A stretch of 64,000 nucleotides of DNA from Buxus sempervirens (Eukaryota > Streptophyta > Magnoliopsida > Buxales > Buxaceae). Shown piece after piece: positions 8,661 to 30,955 of the stretch (position 1 is the first letter of the stretch; each line of letters begins with the position of its first letter). The notes under the pieces were generated by a model that was given only the letters and a program-made list of their open reading frames with translations, was not told the origin of the DNA and made no database searches. The translations under genes were made by a program, and so were the position numbers. The stretch lies in contig OX387186.1 of NCBI GenBank assembly GCA_947561395.2, positions 45,589,220 to 45,653,219 on the forward strand, read 5' to 3'.

Positions 8661-8703
8661 GTCCAACCAATCCCTGTGTCTATTTCGGTCGCTCTCTCTC
8701 TCC
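8661..8703 (-). promoter_or_regulatory. Remaining SRX 5' leader, cut by MULE insertion
   Basis: Only 43 bp separate the SRX ATG from the MULE terminus at 8704. The (CT)n stretch at 8692-8703 is part of the target and is repeated beyond the right end of the element. The original upstream region should resume at 29474. Confidence 0.6.
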
Positions 8704-8859
8704 GCGCGCGGATCCTGTGTGAAGCGCATCGCCTGTGAAGCAAAGGCATCCTCTGTGAAGCGCAATCCAACGGACCAGAATAAGCGAAGGTTATAATAGT
8801 AATTTTGATCCAAACGCTTAAAAAACTATTAAAACTCTCCTCGGCTCTCTCCTCGGCAA
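8704..8859 (+). repeat. Left terminal inverted repeat of MULE-B
   Basis: The 156-bp repeat contains three variants of a C(C/A)TGTGTGAAGCG/CCTCTGTGAAGCG sub-motif near its outer end, and then an AT-rich inner part. Inside the TIR similarity continues with a small indel to about 8891 (GAAAACGTGCGAAACAT against GAAAACGCGCGAAACAT). Confidence 0.9.
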
Positions 8860-8879
8860 TCTCCTCGTCTCGATGAAAA

Positions 8880-8975
8880 CGTGCGAAACATAGTATTTAA
8901 TTTTGGATCCTCTCCACGTCCGCAACGTGCGAAACATATTATTTATTTTTGGATCCTCTCCACGTCCGCGCTTTA
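8880..8975 (+). repeat. Subterminal tandem repeat of MULE-B
   Basis: Two and a half copies of a ~55-bp unit, CGTGCGAAACAT...ATTTTTGGATCCTCTCCACGTCCG, lie directly inside the left TIR. Such subterminal repeats are common transposase-binding candidates; this role is inferred. Confidence 0.6.
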
Positions 8976-9234
8976 CCCGACATTGCGCCATTTCTGGACC
9001 TTCTTCGTCTTCGTCTTCGTCATCCTCATCGCATACGAAAGGGACAGGATCATACTCCATTTGCTTCACAGAGGTTTCCCTTTCTTACAAACGCGCGCGC
9101 CCACTTGACGAAAGAAAGGGACCACCACCATCACAAGAACTTTGTAATTGAGGGACCACCACGACAGCCACCAGCCTCATTGAAAGACGACTGTAAGTCG
9201 TTATTTAATTTTATAATATAATGAGTCAATGACC

Positions 9235-10095
9235 AAATGTATCATAAGGAGCCATGGGTACCAGGCGAAATAAGCCAAAGGTACTGCTCCAAATAACGAT
9301 GGGTACCTTCCGAGTTAAGCTTTAGGTACGCCCGAAGAGCTCCCCAAAAAACATTTTCGTAGTCAACAAATAAACCTAAGGTACCCCACAAATCAGATTA
9401 AGGTACCCCACTCTTAGCCCAAGGTACCACATATAAGCCTAAGGTAGCTCCCATATAAACCTAAGGTACCCCATGGTAAGCCAAACCCACTCACGAAAAT
9501 TAGCCTAAGGTACCCCCTAAACCTACAGTACCCACAATATAAGCCCAAGGTATCCCCAATATAGGTCTAAGGTACTTCCTGAAATCGTGATTCGGCGATT
9601 TGTCCTGAGACCTAATCGCTACGAAACAGAGACAATGTTTCACTGCTTACAGTTAATCGCAAATCTGCGATTCGTCGTCTGATTAATCGCCGCACCTAAT
9701 CGCCAGGTCACGATTAATCCTGTACTTAATCGTGATGAAAATCTTGGGAAGTAAGGCTTAGATTCCTCTCCCCTCCCCAATTAATTCATAATTGGTGGGT
9801 TACTCAAGGCTTAGGGGGCTGGTACCTAAGGCTCACTTGTTTGTACCAAGGCATTTTTGGGGTGTACCTAGAACATTTTGGGTGGGGGTGGGGGGGGAGG
9901 ATATTTGGGGATACCCAAGGCTTATTTGTGGGGTACGAAAGCCTTATTTTGTTGGGGGTACCGAAGGCTTAATTGGGTTTTGGTAAGCCAATTTGTAGGT
10001 GTACGTAAACCAATTTAGGGGACCTATTTGTGGGTACCCAATTCTTATTTGTGGGGTACAAAATGCATATTTGTGGGGTACGTAAGGCGTATTTC
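9235..10095. repeat. GGTACC-rich block with GATTAATCG cluster, left side of MULE-B
   Basis: About 9240-9575 and 9815-10095 hold many copies of a loose ~20-25-bp motif, (GG)GGTACC(C)(C)..AAGCCTAA or its complement. Between them, 9580-9745 is a cluster of GATTAATCG/CGATTAATC-like words. The region is non-coding and precedes the Ulp1-like gene. Similar blocks lie near 13.75-14.35, 22.4-22.7, 24.75-25.2 and 28.4-28.9 kb, so they separate the genes of the element. Confidence 0.7.
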
Positions 10096-10183
10096 AATTT
10101 ACATTTTGATTTTATAGATGGCACATGTAAATAGTCACATTGCAAAGTTTTTTTTATCAATTTATGTATTTATTTGTAGATAA

Positions 10184-13100
10184 ATGGCACCAAGCGGGGA
10201 AGGAGTTCGCAATAGATGTAGTCCTCAACGACTTCTAAAAATTATCAAAAGGTTGAACGAGTCCCAGAAGCTAGCTGTTAGAGAAATTGGGCTGGGAAGC
10301 CTTCTGGATATGACGATTAAACACTGTTATAAGGGCAACATTGTGTCCTTATTGGCTTCATTTGATCCCGAAAAATGTTGCCTTGAAGTAAGTGGAAGGA
10401 CGTTTGAGATATCACCTCCTGATGTTCAGCGGATATTGGGGGTGACCTCTGCCGGGGAGAGTATAGAAATCGATGAGGTGGAAAATGACCTCACAGAATT
10501 AAAGAAAATGTATTGTGATGATAAAGGTAAGATACCTTTAGGAGAGCTGGAGAGAAGACTGCAAGAGAAGGAGACGGCGGATGAAGATTTTTTGAGGCTT
10601 TTTGTATTGCTTGCATTGGGCTCATTTTTATGCCCTCAAGCTAAGCCGGAGGCCAGCACAAAGTTCTTAAATCTCATAATGGATATGGAGGGACTCCGTA
10701 CCCTCAACTGGTCGAAGTTGGTTCTTGATTGGCTCATTGCTGCAATCCGCCGATACAAGGAGAAGCACCAAATATATGTCGGTGGTTGTTTGGTTTTTCT
10801 AAAGGTAAATTATTGTTATACACACATTTCATATATTTGGTATGCTTAAATTGTAATGGAAGAAATGTTTAATCAATCGCAGATGTTCTATTATGAATGC
10901 TTGCGCATGGATGGGAGCGCGATAGAGTTGGATGCAACAGCTCCTCTCATCACCGTGTGGAATGATGAGGATGTGTTGGAAAGGGAGAAAGAAGGAAAGG
11001 AAAAGGACATGAATATTCCGGAACATATTGACTATGAAAATGTTCCGGAGTCCGATAAATCAAAGGGGAGGAAGAAGGTATATTATATTGTATTGTATTT
11101 ATATTTTCGAATAGGGGGTACTCAATATGAATATTCATTATACGTACATGGACATAAATTTTACTTGATTATGTGTTTTAGGAGGATAAACTGAGGGCAG
11201 CGATAAAGAAGCTAACAAAGGTAGTTGCTGCCCTTCAGCGTGAGGTAGCCAAATCCTCGAGATTGAAGGCTTTGGAGAAGGAGGTAATGGAAATCGGTTT
11301 TTGTCATTATTCATTATAAGTTCCAGATCTTATAGAAATGCAAATGTTTGTGGCTTGATTTGTTTAGGTGGAGAGATTGAAGTTGATGATAAGCAATCTT
11401 GGAGTAGGGCAAGCTGAACTAAGAGAGATGGTTCTCGAGCTTGTTGGATATGCTCGTGACTACCGAAGCTACCCTACCCCTGAATGTCCACGTGAACCAT
11501 TTGAGGTTCCAGTGAACGTTGCTTCTGCACCGGAGGGCCCTTGCCCGGTGTCGCCGATGGAAGATATTGAACCTAGGGCGGAATGTATCCCGGATCCAAC
11601 AGCGGGAGAATATGAAGGTTCAATCGTTCCATTTCAACCCGTTGAGGCTCCGAGATTGAAACGAATGAAGATTCCCGGCAAGGCAAAAAGGAGTCCTTTT
11701 ACAACCATCACTGGGGAGAAAAAGAAGAGGGCCAGAAAGAGTAAGCAACCGCTCGATGCCGAGAGGCCAACGCAAACGGTAAGTAGTATATAATTGGATG
11801 TCTAATTGCATGTCAACCATTCATGTAAAACTTTACCATAGTAGATTGAAGAGCAATATTGTCGATGTAATGATCATTGTGTGACCTACATGAAATATAT
11901 TTCAGGTACCATCTTACGATGATGATAGTGCGGAGGCTAGGTTGTTGCCGGATCTGAACACTGCAGATCCGTCCATAGAGCCATTGGTATGTTTGTTCTC
12001 AGTTTTTCTAAAGGAATTGTTTTTGTTTTTCGGTTAGAATTAGGTTGACAGCCATATATTCATTTTTTGGAATTTTTAATAAACTTGTAGGCAAGCGAAC
12101 CAGCGGATGCATCTTCTAGTAGGACGCCTGTGGATGCTGGAAGCGCGGTCTGCAACTATGCATTCCGTGAGGACCTCGATCCAGAGTAAGTACTTTCGCA
12201 TATTTATGTTTGACGCGTTGTTGCTTTGTAAATTGTTGTGTATGGTTTGACTGTTTCTTTTGTGGGATATATATGTAGCGAGGTTTTGGTGAGATTCTTT
12301 GATGTCTTCATTGCCCGCGGTGAGTTCGAATGTTTGAAGCCTGAGAAATGGGTTACCAACTGGGTAGGAGTCTAACAACCTAAGTATCTTGTCAGATCGC
12401 ATAAATATTTGGATTCTTAGATTTTATTTTTTTCTATGTAGATCTTGGATTGCTACATGCGGATGCTGAATTTCCAGGAACAGCAGGTTGGAGGCCCATG
12501 TTACTTCTTCCTGTCAGATATTGGGGTAATTATTACGACATTCTTCAAAAGAATTTGACACTGTCTGTAATACTCCTGTTGAACCTATATTATAACTTTT
12601 CAGACTTTTTGCGCGGCAGAAGAAAACCGAGAACTTACCAGACTTAATGATCAATTTGATCCATCGTACCTACTGAATATAGTGAACTACAAAATGGTAA
12701 GCTTAACTCACCATTGTTGCTGGGATCTTTTAATAGGGTAGGGCTAATAAATATGTTTGTATGCAGTTGTTTTTCCCTATATTGGAGCAAGAACATTGGT
12801 ACATGTGTGTTGTTGACATGAATAAAAAGAAAGTCTTTTTTTTGAACTCGATGAAGGTGTGGAGAACCCGTGAAGTTCTCACTGGAGTGGTAAGTGATCA
12901 GCGTAATAATTTCTTGTGTCACTAATGTTGTTATTAAGTATCAATTTTTATATTTCAGCTAAAAGCAGTAGATATTATATGCACCTGGCAATGGGAAAAG
13001 CAAGTTTTAGTAAGCAAATTTCCAAGGACGAAAGCAGATGCTCTTAAGCTTCCTCGGCAAGGCAACCCGTACGTTTTCCACCTATTCCTTCTTTTCTATA

Positions 13101-13412
13101 CTTACTACGATATGATATTAATAGCATTAACTTGTACTCGCATCTTTTGTAGCAATGACTGTGGAATCTTCGCCATGAAGTTCGCCGCTTTCTGGAGAGG
13201 AGAACTTTCTCCTCGATTCACGCAGGTACGCTACAACTCCTAACCTATCCAGTTGTGTTTTCAAAAGCTCCAAATGATCACATTATTAATATAGTTTTGT
13301 TAATTTTGAATAGAATGATATTCCGGGTTTCAGAAGAAGCATTGTGAGTGAGATGATCCTCCACGAAGAAAACACGGTGAAGGATGATATTGTGAAGAAG
13401 AGTTCTACCTAG
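10184..13412 (+). CDS. Ulp1/C48-type SUMO-protease-like protein of MULE-B (13 exons)
   Basis: Ulp1-family peptidases cleave SUMO from targets; versions carried by plant transposons have unknown substrates. Exons: 10184-10804, 10883-11077, 11182-11283, 11368-11778, 11906-11986, 12091-12185, 12279-12363, 12442-12525, 12604-12696, 12767-12889, 12959-13068, 13153-13225, 13314-13412. Every intron is GT-AG and the frame stays open for 723 aa. Residues 1-207 resemble the N-terminal domain of plant transposon-borne Ulp1 proteins (LEVSGRTFEISPPDVQRILG). Residues ~270-370 are charged, and ~400-450 Lys-rich. The peptidase domain has EHWYMCVVD (His599), Gln664 and NDCGIF (Cys670), six residues after the Gln as in Ulp1. 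The position of the usual catalytic Asp reads FFLNSM, with Asn616. The gene looks intact. Exon joins are inferred, not checked against transcripts. Confidence 0.85.
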
Positions 13413-14703
13413 GGGGAGAGTTCGATGTATTAACATTTTTATATTATACATGCGTCACACTACAAACTAAAATTTTAATTTTTGGGGAATCTGTATGTAT
13501 TTATTTGAGGACAAGGATGTTCCTGTAATGAATGCTGTAGCTGAATCAAGCATTCACTTGGATTTTACTTTTATGGCATGTTTAGTTTTTTATGATGTTT
13601 CACGATCATATTTTTGTAAAGTATTGTGTACATAGGACATTGTATCCATTGAATAAAAGCTTGGTTATTTTGATTGCTTAAGTTCTGCCACAGATTCGTC
13701 AAACTCGTTGATCGTAAATTATGCCAAATTTTAAAACAAGTTACTATACATTAGGTACTCCCCCCCAAAACAAAATGAAGGTACGGTTCGTGTGAAGTTT
13801 AAGGTAACCCCGTAACCGGCACAATGTACCACCCCCACCCCATATAAGCTTAGGTGTCACCTAGTAAGAGTTGCGTACACGCCGAAATAAGGCCAAGGCG
13901 CCCACGAAATAAGCCTAAGTTACATCAGCAAATAAGCCAAAGTACCCCTAAGTAATACCCAGGTACCCCCAAAATTAATATTAAGGTAACCCATAAGTAA
14001 GCCGGAGGTACCCCCAAGTAGGAACTGATAATGAACAAAACGCGCGGACGTTAATCATTAACGCGCGGACGTTAATCATTAACGCCCGCACGTTGCAGCT
14101 TTAAAGTGCACAGTACGCGCGAGCGTTACCAGGAAAGATTCGCGCGTTGATTATGCTCCCACTATTTTGTACGTGTGGGTACCTTCGGGTTTCTAGTGGG
14201 GTACCTCAAATTTACCCTTGGGGTACCTAAGTGTTACTTGGAGGTACTCTCCCCTTAATTTGGAGTATTTTTTGTGGATAAATTAAGGCTCGTGTGGGGG
14301 GTACCCTGGGCTGATTTGGGGGATACGTAGGCACGTTTGGAAGGGTATCTCAAGATTAAGATTAATATAAGCTGACTTTTTTTGCATTCCCCGTCTTCCC
14401 ACGGCCTTCGTTGCAGATTTTAATCATTTCGTATAATACCTTAGTCTTGTAGGTGGAAGTTCATTACCATAGGCTAATATAACCAGCAACTTCGACTGGT
14501 TGTTTTGCATGTACACGCATTACGACGTGCTAGACCCAATGTGTGTGTATTGGGGAGATAGAGGAATATGACAAATGAAAGCTAAGACCAAACAATATTT
14601 GCTTTGCATGCACTTATCGCAACGTTTTACAGGCACATAAGTAAAAAAAGATGGTCAAATAAGATGCATTCGATACTCAGATGACATGAAAAGAGGTTCA
14701 AGA
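13413..14703. other. Spacer between Ulp1-like and 614-aa genes, with repeat blocks
   Basis: 13413-13740 is probably the 3' UTR of the Ulp1-like gene. 13745-14015 and 14160-14350 are GGTACC-type blocks. 14035-14155 holds two tandem AACGCGCGGACGTT-type copies followed by variants. 14350-14700 shows no gene. Confidence 0.6.
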
Positions 14704-16548
14704 CTATGGGGCAGGCCCTGCTGGATCAGGAACTTTGTGTGCAGGCTCAAGGGGTTCAAGCAAGAAATGTTCATCTCGAATGTACTCCGCATCACTTGGA
14801 GGAATATGCTCTCCAACGACACCTTGAGAAGCTGCATCGACAACTGTCCTCCGTTCTCCCTTGTCCCTATTCAGCCTGTGAAGCTCCTGATTTTCCAATT
14901 CAAAGTGCTTCATGGCCCGGCTGTAGTCTTGTTGCATCTCCAAATATATCTCGTTCAGCCTGATCTGCTTCTGATGCACTGCTTTTAGTGTGTCATCAGA
15001 ATTCCATACTGTTGACCTCACCCAACTCAACTTGCTGTCAATTTGTGCAAACTTCGGCTTAATCACTTCTCGTACATCCTTTCTCACAGAGTAGGTGTCA
15101 CTTTCTACGTTCTGAAGAAGATGTTCCATCTTAGCAACGTGGCGATCAGTTTCATGCTTGTATGCAAGCTGACCATCGTACAATTGTTTTATCTGCTGCT
15201 TCATCGTCTCCTGGTTCTCAAGAAGTAGCTTGGTTTGATTCATCAACTCACATTGCATGCCCATAACCTGTGAAAGGATTGATGCGAGTCCACGAGGAAA
15301 TTGGGAAGAAGTTGTTTGGTCTATAGGAGCAGCAGCAGGAGCAGGCGTCGATGAGGATGGAATATCATGTTCCACAGGTTGATCATGTGTAGCAGACTCC
15401 AGGAGAGGAAGATCATGCTCATGTCCTATAGAAACATTGGGGGGAGGAGATGGAGGAGCAGGAGCATCTTCACCAGCAGTGGGAGGAGATGGAGGAGCAG
15501 GAGCATCTTCACCAGCAGGGGGAGGAGATGGAGGAGCAGCAGCATCCTCACCAGCAGGGGGAGGAGATGGAGGAGAAGGCGCATGGACCCCTGAAACAGG
15601 GGGAGGGGGTGGAGGAGCAGGAGCATCTTCACCAGCAGGGGGAGGAGATGGAGGAGAAGGCGCATGGACCCCTGGAACAGGGGGAGGGGGTGGAGGAGGA
15701 GGATGAGACTTGTTGTATTGCCCCTTGGACTTATTGTATGTTGCAGTATTGATAGGAGGAAGGGGAGCAAGTAACTCATACTCGGGGAAGTCAATTTGAT
15801 GCATCTTGACTATCTTTGCAATGGCACACCCGAGAGGAAGTCCACACCTACGTTTGGTATCGAACAAACAGTCAAGCATAGTCGAAATCATGATGGTGGG
15901 AACATCAATTGAATGCCTGTTGACCAATGCATAAAGCAAGAGTGCCCTCATAGGAGGCACAGTTGATCTGTGACTCACCGGCGCAACGTTAGAGCATTGG
16001 ATTTTGTATATGAATGAGGTGTCAAATGTAAACTTGGAGGAATCCAGAGCTTTGCCCTCATAGTCCCCCTCCCTCTCAGTGGTCAGTAAAAAAGCAGCCA
16101 CTTCATTGAGCAATTGTGGTAAGGGAGCATCAACATACGGGAAGTCAGGATTCTCAACTCTCGGAATACCTAGGGCCCCAGCGATGGTATCAGAATCTAC
16201 ATGGATGGGCTGCCTTCTGAGAGAGGTATCGAAGGATGGACCGTCTGCGATGTTGTGGATGTTTGAATAGAATTCATATACTAGGTGTTGGGATGGGAGC
16301 AGGAAGTTGGTGAAGAGGTTATCCCATCCCCTCCCGGTAAATGCTGAACTAATAGACTCGGGGAAGTCTTCTAGAATAACCCCTCTTTCAAGCAAGATTT
16401 GTCTGTGGCTGACATCATTCTCGTACAGCTTCTTGGCCTGCCGATCGATGAAGATTGAATTATCAAATGAATCAATCCTGCGTTTCTTATTGGCTGTCCT
16501 GGAGGATTTCTTAGGTTTAGAAGATGAGGCTCTGGTCTTAGGGGCCAT
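14704..16548 (-). CDS. Putative plant transposon protein family member, Pro-rich, 614 aa (MULE-B)
   Basis: A single open frame starts at ATG 16548. The N-terminus is basic (MAPKTRASSSKPKKSSRTAN, then KKRR), suggesting nuclear targeting. Residues ~40-270 resemble the conserved domain annotated as putative plant transposon protein in many plant repeats, with RGWDNLF, VYEFYSNI, ALGIPRVENPDFPY and a PPMRALLLYALVNRHSID segment. Residues ~285-375 are a tandem Pro-rich region built of PPSPPPAGEDAPAP-like units. The C-terminal third (about 430-590) has long charged helices that look like coiled coil. Function is unknown; a gag-like, DNA-binding or assembly role is speculation. Convergent with the Ulp1-like gene. 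Confidence 0.75.
   Translation of the reverse strand: MAPKTRASSSKPKKSSRTANKKRRIDSFDNSIFIDRQAKKLYENDVSHRQILLERGVILEDFPESISSAFTGRGWDNLFTNFLLPSQHLVYEFYSNIHNIADGPSFDTSLRRQPIHVDSDTIAGALGIPRVENPDFPYVDAPLPQLLNEVAAFLLTTEREGDYEGKALDSSKFTFDTSFIYKIQCSNVAPVSHRSTVPPMRALLLYALVNRHSIDVPTIMISTMLDCLFDTKRRCGLPLGCAIAKIVKMHQIDFPEYELLAPLPPINTATYNKSKGQYNKSHPPPPPPPPVPGVHAPSPPSPPPAGEDAPAPPPPPPVSGVHAPSPPSPPPAGEDAAAPPSPPPAGEDAPAPPSPPTAGEDAPAPPSPPPNVSIGHEHDLPLLESATHDQPVEHDIPSSSTPAPAAAPIDQTTSSQFPRGLASILSQVMGMQCELMNQTKLLLENQETMKQQIKQLYDGQLAYKHETDRHVAKMEHLLQNVESDTYSVRKDVREVIKPKFAQIDSKLSWVRSTVWNSDDTLKAVHQKQIRLNEIYLEMQQDYSRAMKHFELENQELHRLNRDKGERRTVVDAASQGVVGEHIPPSDAEYIRDEHFLLEPLEPAHKVPDPAGPAP
15430..15710 (-). repeat. Coding minisatellite for Pro-rich repeats
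   Basis: Seven or so imperfect 39-45-bp units (GGAGGAGATGGAGGAGCAGGAGCATCTTCACCAGCAGGG on the plus strand) encode the PPSPPPAGEDAPAP array. Similar long open frames on the other frames of this interval are artefacts of the repeat. Confidence 0.75.
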
Positions 16549-16559
16549 CTAAGATTTCA

Positions 16560-17220
16560 GAAGAAGAGAGGAAGAAAAATAAATATGCACAAAACAACAC
16601 ATAGCAAACGATAATGTTAGACACAGAAAAGATGAGTGCTACCGAATGCAAATAATATAGAATGTGAATAATATGAATAATTGTGTGGAAAAAACCCACT
16701 CCCTATATACATAAAAAAAAAACCCCAACACTTGAGGAAAAAGTGCAGGCGTTATTCACGCGTCAGGGAGATAACAATAGGGATGTGTACTTGTCAAAGG
16801 CTTATAGGAAAAGTGAATAGTAACTTGATTGCAACCGATAATATAAACCATTCCGACGAAGATAAACCAAAATGTACCTCTTGAAGACATTAGAATAAAC
16901 ACATAGATCGGAAACCCTAAATGAACAAATTAATACCCTAATCGTAACATATAAAATCAAAGCAGTAAAGTTCGTAAAGCATCTCGTAAGTCCTACGAAC
17001 CAGAAATATAGGCTTTGGAACTCTTCCAGAAGAGAAGTGGTACCCACCCTGAGAAGACTTTATCGCAATGAAGATGAAGCGCTTCGGATGGCTTTGATTC
17101 GCATGGACGAAATAACGCGCCAGACCTGTTTCTTTGTAAATATAGGCAAACGCCCGAACGCACGCGCCCAGCACGTGCGCGCGTTGATATTAAATATGTA
17201 CCAAAACATAAGGAATTCTT
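16560..17220. other. 5' flank of the 614-aa gene, no gene seen
   Basis: This stretch probably holds the promoter and leader of the minus-strand gene. I see no coding evidence. GCGCGCGTTGATATTAA-type motifs begin at about 17150. Confidence 0.5.
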
Positions 17221-20200
17221 CAAAGGGTACCTTCGGTTTATGATTGGGGTACCCCAGGCAAAATGTGGGGATACCTCATGCAAAAACACGGCGGTACCCA
17301 AACCCGAAGCGAACGTCCGAGCGTTCACGAGAACGTGCGCGCGTTGATATTAAATATGTGTCGTCCCCAGAGCCTCTTAACTTTTTTAAAGTGTCCCAAC
17401 GGGTTTTGTTCACGAGAACGTCCGAGCGTTCATGTATGTACATTTGTATATGTGTGTACACATGATTGTACACATGTGTGTACATGTGCACACATGTACA
17501 TGTATATATGTGTACACATGTACCCAGGTCTGTACATGTGTACACATGTACATGATATATGTGTACACAAGTACATGTTCTTTAACGTGTACATGTACGG
17601 ACATGTGTGCACATGCACACACATGTCTACATCTGTTCAAATGCATGTAAATGTACATGTATGTGTACAAATGTACACACATGTACATGTGTGCTCATAT
17701 TGACATGTGTAAGCGTGTACACATGCACACACATGGGCACATGTGTGTACACACACGCACATGTGTACACATATACATATGTGTAAATGTGTACACAGAT
17801 GACAATGTCCATGTGTACATTTGTAAGGTACATCAGCAAACAAGCCAGAGGTGCCCCCAAATGATAACTTACGGTAGGGACAATTACGAAAACAAGTACG
17901 TCATAGGTACCCCACATAAAACGTGGGTACCCCAACAATAACATGACGGTACCCCACACGTAAGGCGAAGGTACCATATATAAGGAATTACAAGGAAACA
18001 TTAACGCGCGGACGTTAAGGTCCAACACGCGCGCGTTAAAGCTATTAATGCGCGTCCGACAGCTGTCTAATTCGGCAGGAACGTTCGCGCGTCCATGACC
18101 AACGTCCGCGCGTTGACGTCTCTTCCACTTTCCTTCTACAGGGTACCTTCGCTTTTAAAACAGGGGTACCTTTGTATTATATCCTTGGGTACCCCCCTAA
18201 TATTTGGGGTACCTGTGTCCTACCATAATTTACGCTCCTGTGCTTGTACATACATGTGTACAAATACATGAAAGCAGCCGATACACATCAAAAAATGTAA
18301 TAACACGTGTGCACAGATGACAATGTCATAGGAACCCCAACTAAAACGTGGGTACCCAAGGATAAGGAATGAAGCTACCCCATACGTAAGGCGAAGGTAC
18401 CCAATATGAGGAATTATTAGGAAACGTTAACGCGCGGACGTTAATGTCGAACGCGCGAGCGTTAAAGTTATTAATGCGCGTGCGACAGCTCACTTCTTCG
18501 ACCGGAACGTTCGCGCGTTAGAGACCAACATCCGCGGGTTAACGTCTGTTGCCCTTTCCTTCTACTGGGGTACCTTCGCCTTAACACCTGGGTACCTTCA
18601 TATTATATTTTGTGGTACCTTAGGTTTAAGTGGGGTACCTGTGGCCTACCCTAATATACGCTTCGGTACATGTGTCTACTTGTGTACACATACATACAAG
18701 CAAGCCTATACACATCAAAGAATGTACTTACATGTGTGTACACAATTACACACATGTGTGTGCGTGGGTATACGTACATGTACACAAGTACATGTTTACA
18801 GGTACAGAAATTTGTAGACATGTACAGACATGTGTGTACATGTACACATGTGTACATGTGTTAACATGTATGTACATGTACATGTGTACACACATGTACC
18901 TGTACCTGTGTACACACATGTACATGTGTAAACATGTATGTACATGTACATGTGTACACACATGTACCTGTACCTGTGTACACACATGTACATGTTTACA
19001 AATGTACACACATGGACACATGTTTACACACATCTACATGTGTGCACATTGGTACATGTCTACTCATATATAAATGTACATGTTTAAACATATATGAGTA
19101 CACATGTACACACATGTCTACATCTGTTCAAATGCATATAAATGTACATGTATGTGTACAAATGTATGGTTAGGCACAGTTACGAAGAAAAGTACGTCAT
19201 AGGAACCCCAACTACTACGTTGGTACCCAAGCATAGGGAATGAAGGTACCCCATGCGTAAGGCGAAGGTACCCAATATGAGGAATTACTAAGAAAAGTTA
19301 ACGCGCGGACGTTAAAGTCAAACGCGCGAACGTTAAAGCTGATAAAGCGACAACGGTCTTCTTCGGCCGAAACGTTCGCGCGTTAGAGACCAACGTCCGC
19401 GCCTTAACGTCGGTCCCCCTTACCCTCTACTGGGTACCTTCGTTTTGAAGCCGGGATACCTTCGTATTATATATTGAGGTACCTTTGTTTTAATTGGGGT
19501 ACCTGTGGCCAACCCTAATATACGCTTCTGTGCATGTCCATACATGTGTACATGTGTAAACATGTATGTACATGTACATGTGTACACACATGTACCTTTA
19601 CCTTTGTACATACATGTACATGTTTATACCTGTACACACATGGGAACATGTTTACACACATATACATGTGTGCACAGATACACATGTGAACATGTCTACT
19701 CATATATACATCTCCATGTTTACACATATACACATGTGTACATGTGTGTGCACGCATATATACATGTACATGTGCATTTATATATGAGTAGACATGTACC
19801 AATGTTTACACATGTATATGTGTATAAACATGTGCCCATGTGTGTACATTTGTAAACATCTACATGTGTGTGCACAGGTACAGGTAAATGTGTGTACACA
19901 TGTACATGTACGTGTACCCACGCACACAGGAAAATGTGTACTTGTGTGCACAAATGTAAGAACATTCTTTGATGTGTATAGGCTTGCTTGTATGTATTTG
20001 TACACATGTACCGAAGCATATCTTAGGGTAGCCCACCGGTACCCCACTTAAACCTAAGGTAGCACAAGATATAATACGAAGGTACCCCAGGGCTAAAACG
20101 AAGGTACCCGAGTAGAAGGAAAGGGCTACAGACGTTAACGCGCGGACGTTGGTCTCTAACGCGCGAACGTTCCGGCCGAAGAAGAGAGCTGTCACACGCG

Positions 20201-22540
20201 CAATAATAACTTTCACGCTCGCGCGTTCGACATTAACGTCCGCGCGTTAACGTTTCCTAGTAATTCCTCATATTGGGTACCTTCGCCTTACGTGTGGGGT
20301 AGCTTCATTCCCTATCCTTGGGTACCCACGTGTTAGTTGGGGTTCCTATGACATTGTCATCTGTTCACACGTGTTACTACATTTTTTTGATGTGTATCGG
20401 CTGCTTTCATGTATTTGTACACATGTATGTACAAGCAAAGGAGCGTAAATTATGGTAGGACACAGGTACCCCAAATATTAGGTAGGTACCCAAGGATATA
20501 ATACAAAGGTACCCCTGTTTTAAAAGCGAAGGTACCCTGTAGAAGGAAAGTGGAAGAGACGTCAACGCGCGGACGTTGGTCATGGACGCGCGAACGTTCC
20601 TGCCGAATTAGACAGCTGTCGGACGCGCATTAATAGCTTTAACGCGCGCGCGCGTTGGACCTTAACGTCCCCGCGTTAATGTTTCCTTGTAATTCCTTAT
20701 ATATGGTACCTTCGCCTTACGTGTGGGGTAGCTTCATTCCCTATCCTTGGGTACCCACGTATTAGTTGGGGTTCCTATGACATTGTCATCTGTGCACACG
20801 TGTTATTACATTTTTTGATGTGTATCGGCTGCTTTCATGTATTTGTACACATGTATGTACAAGCACAGGAGCGTAAATTATGGTAGGATACAGGTACCCC
20901 AAATATTAGGTAGGTACCCAAGGATATAATACAAAGGTACCCCTGTTTTAAAAGCGAAGGTACCCTGTAGAAGGAAAGTGGAAGAGACGTCAACGCGCGG
21001 ACGTTGGTCATGGACGCGCGAACGTTCCTGCCGAATTAGACAGCTGTCGGACGCGCATTAATAGCTTTAACGCGCGCGCGTTGGACCTTAACGTCCGCGC
21101 GTTAATGTTTCCTAGTAATTCCTTATATATGGTACCTTCGCCTTACGTGTGGGGTACCGTCATGTTATTGTTGGGGTACCCACGTTTTATGTGGGGTACC
21201 TATGACGTACTTGTTTTCGTAATTGTCCCTACCGTAAGTTATCATTTGGGGGTACCTCTGGCTTGTTTGCTGATGTACCTTACAAATGTACACATGGACA
21301 TTGTCATCTGTGTACACATTTACACATATGTATATGTGTACACATGTGCGTGTGTGTACACACATGTGCCCATGTGTGTGCATGTGTACACGCTTACACA
21401 TGTCAATATGAGCACACATGTACATGTGTGGACATTTGTACACATACATGTACATTTACATGCATTTGAACAGATGTAGACATGTGTGTGCATGTGCACA
21501 CATGTCCGTACATGTACACGTTAAAGAACATGTACTTGTGTACACATATATCATGTACATGTGTACACATGTACAGACCTGGGTACATGTGTGTTCTTGT
21601 TTGCACACATGTAAGTACATTGTTTGGTGTGTACCGGCTTGCTTGTATGTATGTGTACACATGTATGTACATGCATAGACGCGTATATTATGGTTGGCCC
21701 CTGGTACCCCAATTAAAACTAAGGTACTGCACTATATAATACGAAGGTACCCCGGTTTCAAAACGAAGGTACCCGGTAGAGGGTGAGGGGAACAGAAGTG
21801 AACGCGCGGACGTTGGTCTTTAACGCGCGAACGTTCTGGCCGAAGAAGATCGTTGCCGCTTTATTAGCTTTAACGCTCGCGCGTTAACTTTAACGTCCGC
21901 GCGTTAACTTTTCTTAGTAATTCCTCATATTGGGTACCTTCGCCTTACGTATGGGGTACCTTGATTCCCTATGCGTTGGTATCCACGTATTAGTTGGGGT
22001 ACCTATGACGTACTTGGCATGTGTACACATGTCTGTACGTGTACCCACGCACACACATATATACCTGCGTTTATATGTGTGTGTGTTCCTGTTTGCACAC
22101 TTGTAAGTACATTTTTTGTTGTGTATCGGCTGCTTGTATGTATTTGTACACATGTATGTACAAGCACAGACGCGCATATTAGGGTAGGCCACAGGTACCC
22201 CAGTTAAAACTAAGGTAGCCATTGATATAATAAGAAGGTACCCCTGTGTTACAGGTAAGGTACCCCGTAGAAGGAAAGGGGCACAGACGTCAACGCGCGG
22301 ACGTTTGTCTTTAACGCCCGCACGTTCCAGATTAAGAGGACAACTGAAGCGCGCGCTTTCTGAAGGACCTTTCGCGCGCTATTGTATGGGGTACCTTCAT
22401 ATGTTTTTTTGGGTACCTGCGTTTTATGTGGGGTACCCATACAGTACCTGGCTTCTTAATTGTGGCAACCGTAAGGCATTATTGGGGGGCACCTTTGGCT
22501 TTTTTCCTGATGTACCTTAGAATTTTTTGAGGGGTGCCGT
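17220..22540. repeat. Central nested inverted-repeat array of MULE-B
   Basis: Three kinds of DNA alternate: long runs of GTACATGTGTACACATG-like alternating purine-pyrimidine sequence (about 17420-17840, 18660-19170, 19525-20010, 21280-21670, and shorter), GGTACC blocks, and CpG-rich pairs of AACGCGCGGACGTT and AACGCGCGAACGTT. Large parts are inverted copies: 17627-18028 is nearly the reverse complement of 21081-21479, and about 18240-18330 of about 20790-20880. About 20270-20700 is repeated directly at about 20700-21130. Frames in it translate to Cys/His/Thr/Val/Tyr-rich nonsense and are not genes. Confidence 0.85.
20270..21130 (+). repeat. Direct duplication of a ~430-bp unit in the right arm of the array
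   Basis: Two consecutive units share the order ATTCCTCATAT/TTATATATGG, GGTACCTTCGCCTTACGTGTGG, GACATTGTCATCTGT, CACGTGTTA(T/C)TACATTTTTT, and the CpG-rich motif pair. They are nearly identical, which suggests a recent duplication. Confidence 0.7.
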
Positions 22541-23251
22541 GGTCGTATTTCTTGGGTTACCTCGCTACAACTCTGTGCTATTGGTTCTCTCTTCATGGGG
22601 TCACGTTTTGGAAAACTTTGCACAGTACCTTGGGCTTAAGTCTGGGGTAGCATGGCCTTCTTTAGGGGGTACTCAGATTTGTATGTATTGAAGGTTCAAA
22701 AATACGTGCACATATCTTACATGAGTCACATTCATAACGTGACATGAATGTTATAAACTCTCACATCATTCAATACCTTTCCCATGATTTCTAGACACAT
22801 TATTATATCATAAAAATATAATATTTTCATACAGCAAGTCGCTGTTTCATCAGGGTTAGGTCCCATGCGTAATCGGAACATGGCGATTAAGCATGCGATT
22901 AATCTATTGATTTGTACGACTAATCGTGCGGCCGTATGTATTATTTGTATGCGCACAAGCGAGGGTTTATGTTTGGGTGTATAAATAGAGGGTTTCGCTC
23001 CACTTCGTACTCACGAGTAATCTAGGGTTTCCTACGCATGGGTCCCCTTATTCCACTGTTCTCCTGCTGCCTCTCGCCTCCAAATCACGATTAATCTACG
23101 GTATACGCACTTCCTGTTTCTTCCAGGGTTCTCCAAGCCTGTATACTCTCCAACTCAAGGCCAAATATACGGGGTTTACGGTTTGGCTCCACCAAGTTTC
23201 CACTGTGAGTTGTGTCGAACATTGTTTTGTTCTCTGTCATTTTCTCAAATC
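22541..23251. other. Upstream region of the second transposon-protein gene
   Basis: It holds the last GGTACC-like words (to about 22690), a small GATTAATCG cluster (about 22855-22940), and presumably the promoter of the gene starting at 23252; TATAAATAGAGG at about 22980 is a plausible TATA box. Confidence 0.45.
22979..22990 (+). promoter_or_regulatory. Candidate TATA box
   Basis: GTATAAATAGAGG lies about 270 bp upstream of the likely ATG at 23252 and matches the plant TATA consensus. Assignment is by motif and position only. Confidence 0.4.
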
Positions 23252-24547
23252 ATGCCTCGAACAAAGAATTCTAGCATGCGCCATAAGAGGAGAAGGGATA
23301 GGACTCCTGCACCTGCAAGTCCCTCATTATCTTCCGGCTCTCATTACAGCCCTTCTGAGACAGAGGAACCCAATCCCTCTCAGTCTACCATCCACAGGGA
23401 GCCTTATTCTCCTGATAATTCATCGTCTGCACCTTCTGAAGCCGAGCAGATTCGGCAGCGACCCTTGATTGTTGAGAAACCGGTTCTTAGATCATGTTTA
23501 GAACCATATGGTATTGTACAGATTCTGGAAGCTGTTGGTTGGTCCGGCATTCTAGATTGGGGGGATGCTGCCAACTCCTCGACTGTTGCTCAACTTTATG
23601 CCGGATCCCGTAACTTGTCCACCCCTCCTTTTTGTGAGCCTGCATTTGAGATCAAAGTGGCAGACTCTACATATACTGTCACACCTGACTTGATAAGTGA
23701 TCTAATGGGTATACCTAGATCAGAGATCCGTTTCCTGAACCCACCAACGCAAGAGGAACTTGCTGAGGCCACTCAATGTCTGTGTGGGATTGATGCACCA
23801 TGGAAAAAGACTGTGCTTCAAGCTAATCAGCTCTTCCCTGCGTATAGAATACTCCATCTCATCTTCACATTCAATGTCTATCCTAGGTGCGGTAATAAGT
23901 TCGAGCTGACCAAGCCCATGGTCTTCCTTCTCTACCGTCTCATTACTCGGACGCGCCTTTGTCTGCCCACATTCATTTGCAGACATATATGTCAAGTTGT
24001 CCATTCATCTCGTCCCAGAGCCCTTCCGTTTGCCTATCTTATGACCAGGATTGGGATGAGGTTTGGTTTACGTGGACCTCCTGATTCCATGGTTATTTCA
24101 AGGCAATTTTCACAGATGAATCTAAATCAAATGCAACTTGCACCTTTGCACCACCACTGTCACGCGGCTCAGAGATCCGAAGAATCAATGGCGCACCAAC
24201 AGCAGCCACAACAAAGAGAGGAAGCAGAGCCAGCACAACCTTCGTCATCACATCCTCGTCCACCCACTTCTCAACCCAGCTCTTTCAAGACATATTCACG
24301 ACGTGGACCGTCGTCAGAAGCCTTTCGTAGGCTTAGCCAAGATGTTGGAGAGATTCGAGAGGATTTTGGCAGTCTACGACGTGATTTTGGAATGTTTCAG
24401 GAATCTATCACTCATGAAGTTGGTGGACTAAAGAAGCTGGTCAAGAAAGCCGTGAAGATAGTGACTCATCTCTTCACTTGCTCCACTCAGCAGACTCCAT
24501 CCCTCCCACCACTTCCCGGGTCTGATGACGATGACATTGCACCATAG
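23252..24547 (+). CDS. Second putative plant transposon protein family member, 431 aa (MULE-B)
   Basis: I chose the ATG at 23252 (MPRTKNSSMRHKRRRDRTPA), giving a basic, possibly nuclear-targeted start; an in-frame ATG at 23183 would add 23 residues. Residues ~20-65 are Ser/Pro-rich. Residues ~75-290 resemble the same domain as the 614-aa protein: VGWSGILDW, AFEIKVADSTYTVTPDLISD followed by LMGIPRSEIRF, KTVLQANQLFPAYRILH and MVFLLYRLI. After a Gln/Pro-rich linker, residues ~355-410 form a short charged helical stretch (EAFRRLSQDVGEIREDFGSL). It is only distantly similar to the 614-aa protein, so the element carries two diverged members. Function is unknown. Confidence 0.7.
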   Translation: MPRTKNSSMRHKRRRDRTPAPASPSLSSGSHYSPSETEEPNPSQSTIHREPYSPDNSSSAPSEAEQIRQRPLIVEKPVLRSCLEPYGIVQILEAVGWSGILDWGDAANSSTVAQLYAGSRNLSTPPFCEPAFEIKVADSTYTVTPDLISDLMGIPRSEIRFLNPPTQEELAEATQCLCGIDAPWKKTVLQANQLFPAYRILHLIFTFNVYPRCGNKFELTKPMVFLLYRLITRTRLCLPTFICRHICQVVHSSRPRALPFAYLMTRIGMRFGLRGPPDSMVISRQFSQMNLNQMQLAPLHHHCHAAQRSEESMAHQQQPQQREEAEPAQPSSSHPRPPTSQPSSFKTYSRRGPSSEAFRRLSQDVGEIREDFGSLRRDFGMFQESITHEVGGLKKLVKKAVKIVTHLFTCSTQQTPSLPPLPGSDDDDIAP

Positions 24548-25668
24548 TGTCCTGATTTTAGACGTACTTCTATGTTTTGGATATAAATGTCTTTATCTCA
24601 ACGCAACTCAGATGTGTAGAATGTACTCATTTCCCATAGTAAAAGTATTCGTAATTACAGCATCATAATCCTCTGTTGTTTCCATTTGATATAACTTTGT
24701 CCATCAATCTACTCCGAATCAGTTCCTTCTTTGAAAAGATGATTGGCGGTGCACCGTAGGCCTCATTTGGGGGCTACCTAAGGCATCATTGGGGGGATTC
24801 CTTGAGGACAAGGGCATAATTACAGGGAACAAAGTGGTACGTTAGGAAGTAGGAAGAATTTCCTTATAACGCGCGGACGTTACGAACCAACGTTCGCGCG
24901 TTGAAATCTCAATCACCAATTCGTACTGCAACGTTCGGGCGTTGATATCCCAGGTACGCGCGTCATGCTATTTGTGCAGAGGGTACCTTGCGCTTATTTG
25001 TGGGGTACCTAAAGCATGATTCTGGGTACCTAACGCGTAATCTACGGTACCTAAGGTCCAGATGGGTGGGTTCTTATTGTTGTTTCAGGGGATACCTTAA
25101 CTCTTCAGTTGGGGTGTACAAAATTTATATATTGGGGGGTTTTGGGAGCCATTATGGGTGGCGCCTAAGGGTTGATGTTGGATGTACCTGTGTTATTAAT
25201 GGGGGAACGTTATTTTTATTTGGGATGTACTTGCAAGAGGAACAGAAAGAAGCTCTGAAAATATTAACCAATTAACAGAACTAAATAATTAACTCAAAAT
25301 TGCGATTCTCATTCCACTGGAAGTATACATTTGGTACATACACATCCTTGTACAATTAGAAAAAATGAACACTTACATTGCACTACAAGAACAATATAAT
25401 TACAGGACTAACACTGTCAACACATTCAATACACACAATTCACTCCCCCTTTCTTGTCGTACCAATATACAAAAGAATCACAAATCTCCAGGGAAATGAT
25501 CTAAATCTCCTTCTTGACGATATACGCTCCCATCTCGACTATAAACTCCTGGAGATCTCCCTACAGTAGAGCTTGAACAGGAGCCAAATTGATTCTGGCC
25601 AACAGTATTGCTTGAGTTGGATTCTTGGAATATGTTTGGACTCATTGATTCCTGTCATTAATGGAATG
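24548..25668. other. Spacer with GGTACC block and CpG motifs between the two genes
   Basis: 24865-24905 has an inverted AACGCGCGGACGTT / AACGTTCGCGCGTT pair. 24750-25210 is a GGTACC-type block. 25210-25668 is likely 3' flank of both convergent genes. No gene is seen. Confidence 0.6.
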
Positions 25669-28213
25669 TCATTGCAAAGCATTGAAAGTCTTCAAAAAGT
25701 ATTGAAGAGTAGGATCTTCTAGAAAATATACCCGCAGTAGCTGTGTGTAAGTACCAGGTTGTTGGAATGGAGACAAAATTGCATATTCAGCCATAGGATA
25801 TGTTCTCGATTGCATTCCCGTCACCACTCCATCTGTTCGAAACTGATGAGAGGCCTATGGAATACATAAAATTCATAAAAAATAAGAAATCCCCCATAAA
25901 ACCATAATCATGATATGATAAAACAAATACATTAGTATGAGGTAAGTATTATACCATTGTCTCACTCCATCCAGAGCTTTGACTTGCATATTGTGTTTGT
26001 GGTGGAGTTTGAGTCTGAATTGTATTTGCCGTTTGAGCTGGTCTGTCATGGTTCCTCTTGCTCTTTGGAGCCCTTTCTGAAAAATGTTTTGGTCGACGTC
26101 CACTACGACCTCGACCCGGCTTCCTCTTTAGTCCAGCAACGGTGATTTGGATATTTTCAGATAAATTCTCTCCTTCATTCACATCCACTGTGCTCGGAGG
26201 CTTGTTCTTCAGCACATTTCCAACTTCAGTCATTAAAATGGCCAGCCCATTCGCAGCACATTCATATGCCTCGAAAGTTTCGGCAGCAATTGCTGATAAT
26301 TTAACGGCATTATGGCAAAGTTCTCTGTACCGTTTAACCAAGGACAGCTTTGCCACTTCCTCATCTGACATACGACTATAACTTGGGCTGCAACCCTTTG
26401 CATCCTTTGTCCACCGCTTTAATATGTATTGACTTGGGATCCTCTTAATATTTCGCATGTCAAGTACTTTGAGTGCATGGCTACACAAAATCCCAACAAA
26501 TTCAAACTTACGGCAACTGCATTTCAACATATCATCCTCAGTGTTAACTGTAACAACATGCCCTCGAGGATTATCAAATAAGCTAACTTTATAGATTTTG
26601 GATGTCTCAGTATGTGAAGTCTCATTAACAACAAGATTCTGAGCTTTTGCATATTCCGATTGAAAAATCTCAAACAGCTTCGGTGTGTATACCTCCCTTC
26701 CATGCTTTAATATGATGATTTCCGCCATCATTCTTGGAATACGCTGGCTCATATTATAATTGTCTTCCTGTTCCTTGTAACGGATATCATCCAAAAGCCT
26801 TGCAAAATGCTGGAAAAAACACGAGACGTCCATGTTGTACTTCGTGTATTTCTTTAACCGGCTGTTGAAGCTTTCACTCAGTTGGGTGCTCTTCATGTCA
26901 GCACAAAATGTAGTTCTTCCATATACAAGGGCCCATTTCTCCTTTATCTTAAATATGCCCTTCAGCCACTCATTGTCTTGGAGATCGTATTTTTGAATCA
27001 TTGCATCCCACGCTTCCAAGAACTCAGCCTCTTCCTCGTAATCATATATACACCGATTGAAATCAGATGAAAAGGAGGTTCTCGTTTGGAATATGTGACC
27101 GAGATGCTTCAATGAATTTTGGTGCAAATGCCATACACATAACCGATGATACGTGTTCGGCAAAACAAAAGCAATTGCAGCTGACATAGCTGCATCTTGG
27201 TCTGTCAAGATGGTAACTGGCCCTTTCCCATTCATTGCCTTTATAAATGTTTCAAACAACCAAACAAAGGATGCCTTCGTCTCATCATAAAGCATTGCAG
27301 CTCCGAACACTACCATTCGTCTGTGATGGTTGACTCCAACCAATGGTGCAAATGGCCTTTGAGCTTCGTTTGTCCTATAAGTTGTATCAAAACAAACAAC
27401 ATCTCCAAAATTATTGTAGTCTTCTTGCATCTTCCGATCAGCCCAGAAAAAGTTTGTTATTTCATTGTTCTCATCAACTTGTACAGCATAAAAGAAAGAC
27501 GGATCGTCAATCTGTTGTCCTTCAAAATAAATTAATAACCTTGATCCGTCTCCTACTTTCATTGCTCTCCGTCTGTCACGAATCTGGTTCTTATGGTCAA
27601 TAGGTAGGAAGCCCAAATTCTCTCTTCCGCCGGCTTCTCTACCCATGAACTCAAAAGCATGCTTTGGTCGTATGCCACTGCTTTCTGCTAATACAATTTC
27701 TGCTAATTGCGCCTCTGTAACTTTCCTCTGTGAAGGTAGCATGTGGACCTTACTTGGGGTAACAACCTCATGATTATGCTCGTCCTCAAAGCTCGCTACA
27801 AAATACATGCCATTGTCTTGAGCTTTCACACTCATGTGTGCCAAACAACCCGTACGTGTTTCCTTTCTAGGGTTCTTCACATCTTTATCCCGTTTGTCTA
27901 TTCCCTTCTTCCCTTCTTTATAGCAACAAAACTTCCTACACAACTCCTTACCATCTTTCCGACTTTTCCAGCTCGTACTCTTTCGAATACTGAAGCCCTT
28001 CTGTGCTGCATAAGCATTGTAAAATCTATACGCTTCATCGGTAGATGGGAACTCCATTCCCACGGATGGCCTAAAATTTTGAGTATGCCCTTCGCCGTCA
28101 TCGAACCTTAGTGCTCTTACAACTCTAGGCACTGTATTTATATCCGCTATATCATCACTAACCTCATCTCCACTTAATTGCTCACTTCCACTTGTACAAA
28201 TGACTTGCTCCAT
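25669..28213 (-). CDS. FAR1-type Mutator-like transposase of MULE-B (two exons, 814 aa)
   Basis: MULE transposases cut and paste elements at TIRs; the FAR1/FHY3 light-signalling factors descend from this family. Exon 1 is 25955-28213 (753 codons) and exon 2 is 25669-25854 (61 codons plus TGA), with a GT-AG intron that restores an open frame. Order: acidic start; FAR1 Cys/His DNA-binding domain about residues 50-150 (ELCRKFCCY, RTGCLAHM, DEHNHEV); MULE DDE domain with CFDTTYRTN (Asp near 275), ILTDQDAAM (Asp near 334), the C-x2-H of HRLCVWHLHQN, and a candidate Glu in AEFLEAWDAM near 395; SWIM zinc finger CSCRKFEFVGILCSHAL near 565; basic tail KRKPGRGRSGRRP. All key residues are present. It could be mistaken for a host FAR1-related gene, but it lies inside perfect MULE ends. 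Confidence 0.9.
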
Positions 28214-29287
28214 TTGTCCCTACAACATAAAACAGATATTCCACTTAGAATATCATACTAATAACAATATATAGTACCCATGAACATCACAGGGTAACCA
28301 TTCTCTTCAACCATGTGCCAAGTTGGTGTATTTTGACGGCTTATTACAAAACTTGAGTACGTCGGAATAATTTCTTAGTACCTACACACATGGTACCTAC
28401 GAATTATTTTTACGGTACGCCAAGGGTACGAAGGTGGTACATAAGTTTTGGACCTTCTTCATTCCCATAGGTTTGGTTAAAATAAGATAGAATATACTGG
28501 CAACAAATAAAGTCAAAAAAAAGACAAAACATGTCCGCGCGATTAGCCCAGAGATTAATCGTGAGATCCGCGATTAGCATCCACGACTAATCGCCCAGTC
28601 AAGATTAGGTCTCGCGATTAATCTCAAGATTAATCGCGACTGTCCCGATTAACTCTCCAGAGAACATGAAGTCTCTGTTTCATCACGATTAAATCCCAGG
28701 ATTAATCGGTGCCAGACGATTTGGGATACCTACGACAATTTCTTGGGTACCTATGCCTTATTTTGGCTTAATTGGGGGTACCTAGGGCATTATTGGCGGT
28801 TTTTTGGTGGGTACCTACAGGTTCTTATGGTGTGTACCTAGGCTTAATTGTGGTGAACCTCACATTTTTTCGGTGGGTACCTAAGGCTTGTTCGGGGGTG
28901 GTAATGGCTTATTTGACAGCTGTTTATTTCTGGGCGTACCCTGTCGATGTGTGGCGGCGCGGCATTGTTCGCCCGACCATCATTTCAATTTATTTAAGGT
29001 TCCACCATCTTCGGGGGTTGACATTAATGGAAAAGGCCAAAAATCTGTTTATGTACCTGGTTTACATTGGTTGTTGGAGTCTTAAATAGAAACCCATAAT
29101 GGTGGAGTGAGTGGTGGTCCCTTCTTCTTTAACACTTGGAAGTGGAACTGTGGTAGCTGCCTTCCTTTTCTTCGAAGTGAGAGTAAAGACAGCACCTTTC
29201 CCGCCAATGTCGGAGTAAACACAGAAATGTCTGAGTAAGAACAGAGAAAGTTCGGACGTGGACAAGATTATAAGTTAAATAATATAA
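28214..29287. other. Right subterminal region of MULE-B with repeat blocks
   Basis: 28535-28720 is a dense GATTAATCG / CGATTA cluster mirroring the one at 9580-9745. 28380-28440 and 28735-28900 are GGTACC-type blocks. The short open frames at 28772-29362 have no recognisable content. This stretch probably includes the transposase promoter. Confidence 0.6.
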
Positions 29288-29307
29288 ATGTTTCGCGCGT
29301 TTTCGTC

Positions 29308-29463
29308 TTGCCGAGGAGAGAGCCGAGGAGAGTTTTAATAGTTTTTTAAGCGTTTGGATCAAAATTACTATTATAACCTTCGCTTATTCTGGTCCGTTGG
29401 ATTGCGCTTCACAGAGGATGCCTTTGCTTCACAGGCGATGCGCTTCACAGAGGATCCGCGCGC
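29308..29463 (-). repeat. Right terminal inverted repeat of MULE-B
   Basis: This is the reverse complement of 8704-8859 apart from one base (CCTCTGTG here against CCTGTGTG at the left end). Looser similarity extends inward to about 29288. Confidence 0.9.
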
Positions 29464-29473
29464 CTCTCTCTCC

Positions 29474-30319: not shown

Positions 30320-30955
30320 AGAATGAGCAAGCTGTACATTTGAAGTGCTCCAACGGAATTCATACTTGATGGAAGCAAATCACCCAAAGGAAAAGTTAGT
30401 TGTCCGAACGTACGAAGTTGTGTGGTGTCGCCCTTCTCACCCACTAATCAAAATCAATTTCGATGGGGCCTTCAGAAAATCTTCTTCAAAGGCATCAGTT
30501 GGTGGAATTGCCAGGGATCATTTGGGTCGTCACCTGGCTTCTTTTGCGTCTGTCTCAAATGCCTGTTCTAGCTTGTATGCTGAAGCTGAGGCGGCCTTGG
30601 AGGCCGTTAGACTTGCTATAGCGTGTGGTTTTTCCAATATTATTTTTGAAGGAGACTCACTTATCATCATCAATCTCCTATCAAATCCTTCTCCGGTCTT
30701 CCCTTGGGAAATCAGGCCGATGCTGTCATCCCTTAAGGAGCTGTGTTGTAGACTTTCTTCGGTCTCCTTCTCTCACACGGTTCGGGAGAGCAACAAAGCT
30801 GCAGACACCTTGGAAAACTTTGCTTTAGATTTATTTTCCTGTTTCTGGTGTAAACACCCTCCCCCTTGTCTTTCTTCTATCTTGTTTGACGAAGCGAGGG
30901 ATGTAATCTATTCTCGGGCAATCTAATAGATCCCCTTTTGATTACCAAAAAAAAA
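30320..30955 (+). pseudogene. LINE RNase H domain and poly(A) tail (3' part)
   Basis: The frame 30345-30926 encodes a plant LINE-type RNase H: INFDGAFRKSSSKASVGGIA with the first catalytic Asp, AEAEAALEAVRLAIACG with the Glu, FEGDSLIIINLL with the second Asp, and RESNKAADTLENFAL near the end, where the usual Asp of the A-D-xLA motif is kept. The stop is followed at once by TTTTGATTACCAAAAAAAAAA, a typical 3' end of plant L1 LINEs. The RT domain is missing. Confidence 0.8.

Follow-up and report, generated by a model that had tools for sequence, protein, structure and literature searches.

What is the 20.8-kb repeat-flanked block that interrupts a boxwood chromosome: one transposon, or several nested in each other? 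And what might its additional genes and repeats do for it? The window examined here is a 64,000-nucleotide stretch of Buxus sempervirens DNA (contig OX387186.1, positions 45,589,220 to 45,653,219), and the block occupies positions 8704-29463 of it, 20,760 bp in all. We show that it is a FAR1/Jittery-like Mutator element of autonomous type, recently multiplied and with four genes in a fixed layout. In addition, its noncoding DNA is filled with evenly spaced short motifs, which suggests that the element may carry its own system against host silencing. The ends and genes are placed in the window as follows.

8694-8703, just outside the element: left target-site duplication, CTCTCTCTCC
8704-8859, + strand: left terminal inverted repeat (TIR), 156 bp, with the tip GCGCGCGGATCC
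10184-13415, + strand: ULP, 13 exons, 723 amino acids (aa)
16548-14704, - strand: T32A, 614 aa, PF20167 at E 1e-21, proline-rich tandem peptide repeats
23252-24547, + strand: T32B, 431 aa, PF20167 at E 2.5e-13
28213-25949, - strand: transposase, 754 aa, with FAR1, MULE and SWIM domains
29308-29463, - strand: right TIR, 156 bp
29464-29473, just outside the element: right target-site duplication, CTCTCTCTCC

A Mutator element with a fixed four-gene layout

The TIRs reported in an earlier note on this sequence are confirmed: over 156 bp the two arms differ only at 8717, and long TIRs of this kind place the element in the TIR type of Mutator-like elements (MULEs). Both extreme tips contain CGCGCG. 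The 10-bp flanking repeat is equally real; CTCTCTCTCC is of low complexity, however, and is the weakest duplication of all the insertions checked, so the duplications of other copies were checked as well. Exact duplications of 9-10 bp, inside the 9-11 bp range of MULEs, flank 10 of 11 insertions: these comprise the window element, seven other long copies read whole, a 5.97-kb copy and two copies read from their ends alone. The single exception, without a target duplication, is the copy starting at C8:16853449. Its four frames are open all the same (C8:16853449-16873973), and it is possibly a recombinant of two copies.

All four genes are uninterrupted, as had been proposed. One encodes the transposase, one is of the Ulp1 type and has 13 exons, and the other two belong to the PF20167 family. 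The MULE domain of the transposase (PF10551) matches at E 5.7e-27, and the usual DDE motifs (CFD, TDQD, SES), judged by eye, are in place. Its combination of FAR1, MULE and SWIM domains is that of the Jittery/FAR1 type, an assignment made on domains. T32A and T32B score 77.9 and 50.7 bits against PF20167 (Transposase_32), both above the Pfam cut-off of 45, and share 19% identity across 207 aligned columns. Outside the host genome, T32A has one matching relative (E 1.1e-11, 24% identity over 45%); the predicted structure of T32B, with a mean predicted local distance difference test score of 42 from a 3-row alignment, was not used. ULP is a hand-built gene model from sequence, stop-free and with GT-AG borders at all introns. 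A weak N-terminal resemblance to DUF1985 and the plant mobile domain (PMD) is followed by a basic stretch and a C-terminal Ulp1 (C48) protease domain (Peptidase_C48, E 1e-14). A kinship between PF20167 and the ULP N-terminus was considered and rejected: the profile comparison was non-significant (E 0.2), though the same short stretch aligned. The first ULP exon has relatives, open over 217-235 aa and 37-39% identical, at C9:20610482, C15:33210093, C10:28380542, C14:4176618 and C8:12388926; they are perhaps an older separate family.

T32A and T32B diverge from a repeat-rich centre, while the pairs ULP/T32A and T32B/transposase converge. This arrangement recurs across the 676.5 Mb of genome searched: ULP+, T32A-, T32B+ and transposase- follow each other in order at 40 of the 109 ULP loci examined (36 of the best 60), with T32A allowed at 2-25 kb, T32B at 4-45 kb and the transposase at 5-60 kb from ULP. 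The 109 loci are the top 108 of 151 matches and one picked by hand, the latter outside the 40; scoring was limited to the best candidates of each search, so that some of the missed neighbours are partners left unscored. The transposase lies on the expected side and strand of T32A at 43 of 72 listed loci, 25 of these 43 at 11-12 kb; seen from the transposase, T32A is where the layout predicts it at 43 of 59 listed loci. Diverged families, for example at C3:18672624, C10:1945419 and C15:7143208, retain ULP-T32A-T32B. Neither of the two outcomes that the earlier note named as refuting its view was seen: other copies hold this gene set between the same TIRs, and a nest of separate elements is ruled out by the gene set, order and orientation at the 40 loci, so that the view of a single element stands.

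Copies are numerous and young. The best 40 of 396 candidates for the left TIR (query 8714-8869) are all listed as matches, at 97-100% identity, and the right-end search likewise lists 40 matches, the best of 402 candidates. When these listed matches are paired by eye, at least 23 left/right pairs, the window included, lie 16-22 kb apart; one further pair spans 5.9 kb and some are longer than 22 kb. Among the best 59 of 1,255 transposase candidates, 32 are full-length without a stop, 26 have stops and one covers residues 1-717 only. Eight long copies were read, the window element and seven others, and all four frames are open in four of them: the window, C9:5342458, which is 99.8% identical to it over 20.76 kb, C8:16853449, and C9:37395801, where the T32B frame is 13 aa longer. 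C8:4436562 is 99.7% identical over about 20.76 kb and has stops in T32A and close to the transposase end; the transposase is frameshifted at C11:3240557, T32A is missing at C8:48545438, and both T32A and ULP are cut at C15:6446023. A short copy of 5,965 bp has the transposase, both ends and a duplication, without the three accessory genes and the centre. Recent mobility is thus borne out by the 32 of 59 intact transposases listed and the 10 of 11 exact duplications; that the element is live, as the earlier note ventured, is supported to that extent only.

Motif arrays between the genes

The earlier description did not include the phased arrays of GGTACC. The element contains 82 such sites, of which 81 fall in its five intergenic blocks, every block being represented, and none lies wholly within a coding exon (one straddles the start of ULP exon 5). 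Shuffled intergenic sequence holds 4.3 on average and 10 at most (100 shuffles). CGCGCG occurs 49 times, never in coding sequence, against a shuffled intergenic mean of 1.0 and maximum of 5. The window flanks, about 43 kb, have 5 GGTACC and 0 CGCGCG. The blocks and their motifs are these.

9257-10038: left subterminal array upstream of ULP, 10 GGTACC, with 5 of 5 gaps of up to 70 bp in phase
13962-14305: ULP/T32A convergent 3' interval, 6 GGTACC and 4 CGCGCG
16549-23251: centre between the divergent T32A and T32B, 56 GGTACC, 36 CGCGCG, 79 TGTACA and 89 ACATGT
17514-18742, + strand: left arm of the central inverted repeat, 93% identity
20362-21592, - strand: right arm of the central inverted repeat, 93% identity
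24870-25051: T32B/transposase convergent 3' interval, 4 GGTACC (22, 21 and 21 bp apart) and 3 CGCGCG
28392-28881: right subterminal region, 5 GGTACC outside the 22-bp phase

The repeat-rich centre, correctly recognized before, consists at about 17.43-22.52 kb of units of ~425 bp in both orientations, and the two arms form an inverted pair of 1.23 kb. TGTACA and ACATGT are mostly confined to it, their totals in the whole element being 86 and 92.

In four of the five intergenic blocks, GGTACC is phased at 20-23 or 42-45 bp. Pooling the five window blocks with two diverged relatives, 70 of 74 gaps of up to 70 bp deviate by no more than 2 bp from two, four or six helical turns, as against ~24% expected if gap lengths were evenly spread; this count overstates the evidence for phasing, because gaps in one tandem array are not independent. 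In the two relatives, with T32A 59-82% identical, arrays of the same phase stand upstream of T32A (14 and 20 sites), and their units share part of the 22-bp unit beyond GGTACC itself. In-frame stops interrupt one of them, C9:36598298, whereas its counterpart is open.

The genome contains 3,785 triple arrays, runs of three GGTACC set 20-23 bp apart, versus 6 runs of the reversed pattern. Each of the eight long copies has 13-18 such triple arrays. The 59 listed transposase loci would thus explain roughly a quarter of the total, and the remainder must belong to copies not listed or to other families. Triple arrays are seen away from the listed four-gene loci at C1:155265, C1:1699447, C1:5379792 and other places.

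Candidate roles of the arrays and accessory proteins

Short motifs packed densely into noncoding sequence, and not into coding sequence, bring to mind the VANDAL elements. According to excerpts of the published work, VANC, a VANDAL-encoded DUF1985/DUF287 protein, binds noncoding short-motif arrays of its own family (PMC5735166) and removes silencing of that family (PMC5735166, PMC10398659); according to a review, an Ulp1 domain is part of some VANC genes (PMC13317346). The Buxus element resembles VANDAL/VANC systems, including the KIU-type VANC with Ulp1, in being a MULE with accessory genes and dense noncoding arrays. ULP joins a DUF1985-like N-terminus to Ulp1, although its DUF1985 match is below cut-off, and T32A has tandem peptide repeats, as do the variable regions of VANC. 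The differences are also plain. VANDAL TIRs are degenerate or absent whereas those found here reach 156 bp; some VANDAL-related Brassicaceae elements do have TIRs, in the excerpt available of PMC6446971. A FAR1-type transposase, two PF20167 genes, the two-turn phase of GGTACC and a length of 20.8 kb further set this element apart, and DUF287 was not found. Because of the long TIRs, the FAR1-type transposase and the DUF1985 match below cut-off, we do not class the element as a VANDAL. Our preferred reading, held at about even odds, is a FAR1-type TIR-MULE with a VANDAL/VANC-like module, whose accessory protein would bind the phased arrays and oppose silencing.

Such a module could work in the following way. 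The transposase would cut and join at the TIRs and probably recognize, through its FAR1 domain, the tip CGCGCG and internal ACGCGC-type sites; CGCGCG-type sites would serve the transposase and GGTACC the accessory protein. At least one of the DUF1985-like/Ulp1 protein and the PF20167 proteins would bind the palindromic GGTACC in dimeric form, and a distance of two helical turns between sites would set the dimers on one face of the DNA. There they may act cooperatively, covering the element's promoters and terminators and protecting it from silencing in the manner of VANC on VANDAL elements, and the Ulp1 domain might strip SUMO-like marks from silencing factors. More tentatively, and somewhat short of an even chance, this would be a second, TIR-bearing case of sequence-specific anti-silencing, in which the PF20167 and/or DUF1985-like/Ulp1 protein recognizes two-turn-phased GGTACC dimers, coats noncoding DNA and has let the families spread, with the 3,785 triple arrays as the trace.

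The recurring gene set, the placement and phase of GGTACC, the genome-wide triple arrays and the VANC precedent speak for such a module, as do three further observations. When copies are compared, 5 of 486 GGTACC columns are variable, versus 99 of 1277 columns in the 8-bp flanks (Fisher 1.4e-9) and 404 of 10,472 in other noncoding sequence. The FAR1 domain of FHY3/FAR1 recognizes CACGCGC, as given in an excerpt of PMC13306707; the core ACGCGC, on either strand, is present 50 times in the element vs once in the window flanks. Outside CGCG runs, the observed/expected ratio of CpG is 0.75-0.80 in four of the five intergenic blocks and 0.53 in the fifth, the flanks being at 0.50; this sequence signal is a weak hint of low methylation or of youth.

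Several results weigh against an anti-silencing module of this kind. The DUF1985 match of ULP reaches 24.4 bits where Pfam requires 35.1, the PMD match is likewise under its cut-off, and DUF287 is not among the matches listed. The catalytic residues of C48 proteases are His, Asp, Gln and Cys; when ULP is aligned with human SENP2, His, Gln and Cys match, but the Asp column holds Asn (FFLNSM versus YLDSM, at ULP residues about 604-620), so protease activity is not to be assumed. Among 68 common hexamers GGTACC takes no better than 11th place for low variation, which may partly reflect exchange between array units, all of which have the core in common. In the right subterminal region just one of three gaps fits the phase. 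The CGCGCG sites fare worse: their columns vary at 15 of 272 between copies, hence are not conserved, and they are nearly absent from the two diverged relatives, which upstream of T32A have 0 and 2 CGCGCG, 0 and 9 TGTACA, and 2 and 8 ACATGT. Exact CACGCGC has just 4 occurrences within the element and none in the flanks, and CpG transitions, 8 of 1701 at CGCGCG vs 39 of 5748 elsewhere in noncoding DNA, are not clearly rarer there. Finally, the 5.97-kb transposase-only copy has a duplication, so that an element may be able to do without accessory genes in cis.

A different function would be transposition itself: the transposase or an accessory protein would use the arrays to join the ends of a very long element, with no anti-silencing involved. 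TNPA acts thus at the subterminal repeats of En/Spm. CGCGCG at both extreme tips, a FAR1 domain fitting it, and GGTACC in both subterminal regions agree with such a role; nevertheless 56 of the 81 intergenic GGTACC are central and 10 more lie between convergent genes, and the 5.97-kb copy has a target duplication without accessory genes or centre, though its deletion may postdate insertion. We regard this explanation as rather unlikely.

A neutral reading, with the arrays as minisatellites, the three extra genes as passengers and only the TIRs and transposase of consequence, is unlikely too. Tandem duplication of a unit can create phasing by itself, the centre is indeed a patchwork of ~425-bp units, and a transposase-only copy exists; the dN/dS-like ratios of young copies (0.41-1.55, from few changes) are uninformative, which leaves room for neutrality. 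Yet separate blocks share the phase with each other and with the relatives (T32A 59-82% identical), no GGTACC is wholly within a coding exon, gene order is kept across families and many accessory frames are open. A hairpin, or a replication or chromatin structure, formed by the central inverted repeat and regulating through small RNA independently of any motif-bound protein, would make use of ~5 kb of two-orientation units between two divergent promoters, but is very improbable, as GGTACC is also present in four other blocks and the two relatives have little TGTACA or ACATGT, the prevailing motifs of the centre, upstream of T32A.

Known families, neighbouring sequences and implications

Part of the picture is already in print: the portion of PMC2528002 consulted, from which the comparisons with grape come, describes MULEs of 14-18 kb, MULEs with an Ulp1 gene and, among the Jittery-like ones, elements with ULP. 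Some Jittery-like families of grape carry ULP coding sequence. Jitvine-1 and Jitvine-2 (11.9 and 14.4 kb) share a Jittery-like transposase with our element; PF20167 genes and motif arrays go unmentioned in that portion of the grape description, which states no TIR or target-duplication lengths for these two elements either. Mutavine-18 (16.2 kb) has a ULP region and TIRs of 230-263 bp, and Mutavine-1 is large as well (17.7 kb), but both are MuDR-like, not Jittery-like. The very large size stressed in the earlier note stands at 20.8 kb; its novelty shrinks beside grape MULEs of 14.4-17.7 kb (PMC2528002). KAONASHI (KI) MULEs also place an Ulp1 gene beside a MULE transposase; they are non-TIR elements with a mudrA-type transposase (PMC2528002), in contrast to the TIRs and FAR1-type transposase seen here. 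Athila-type elements have an additional open reading frame partly similar to PF20167, in the excerpt of PMC11728184, but these are retrotransposons, not MULEs. In the open-licence literature, as far as its accessible excerpts go, we found no published case of PF20167 genes inside a MULE.

Elsewhere in the window, a 568-aa open reading frame at 57466-59172 (- strand) contains MULE and SWIM domains and is 45% identical to the element transposase over 420 aa. Lys replaces the Glu of the SES motif of the element; the frame is perhaps a domesticated or decayed FAR1-related gene. Frames with RVT_3 and zf-RVT domains at 30327-30926 (+ strand) and 53816-54490 (- strand) are remnants of retroelements or related genes, and 34440-34662 is a tandem repeat with 11 copies of a 20-bp unit, consensus GGGTTAAACGGGTCATTATC.

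The element offers a testable role for PF20167 proteins. If the anti-silencing proposal is true, this family, present also in retrotransposons, would gain a role as a transposon chromatin factor. To our knowledge, molecular detail on how transposons escape silencing without harm to the host comes mainly from the VANDALs of Arabidopsis. Here a young, high-copy family brings together a candidate motif, three candidate proteins, a deletion copy without the accessory genes and relatives that keep the motif; with such material, the generality of sequence-specific anti-silencing in MULEs becomes directly testable.

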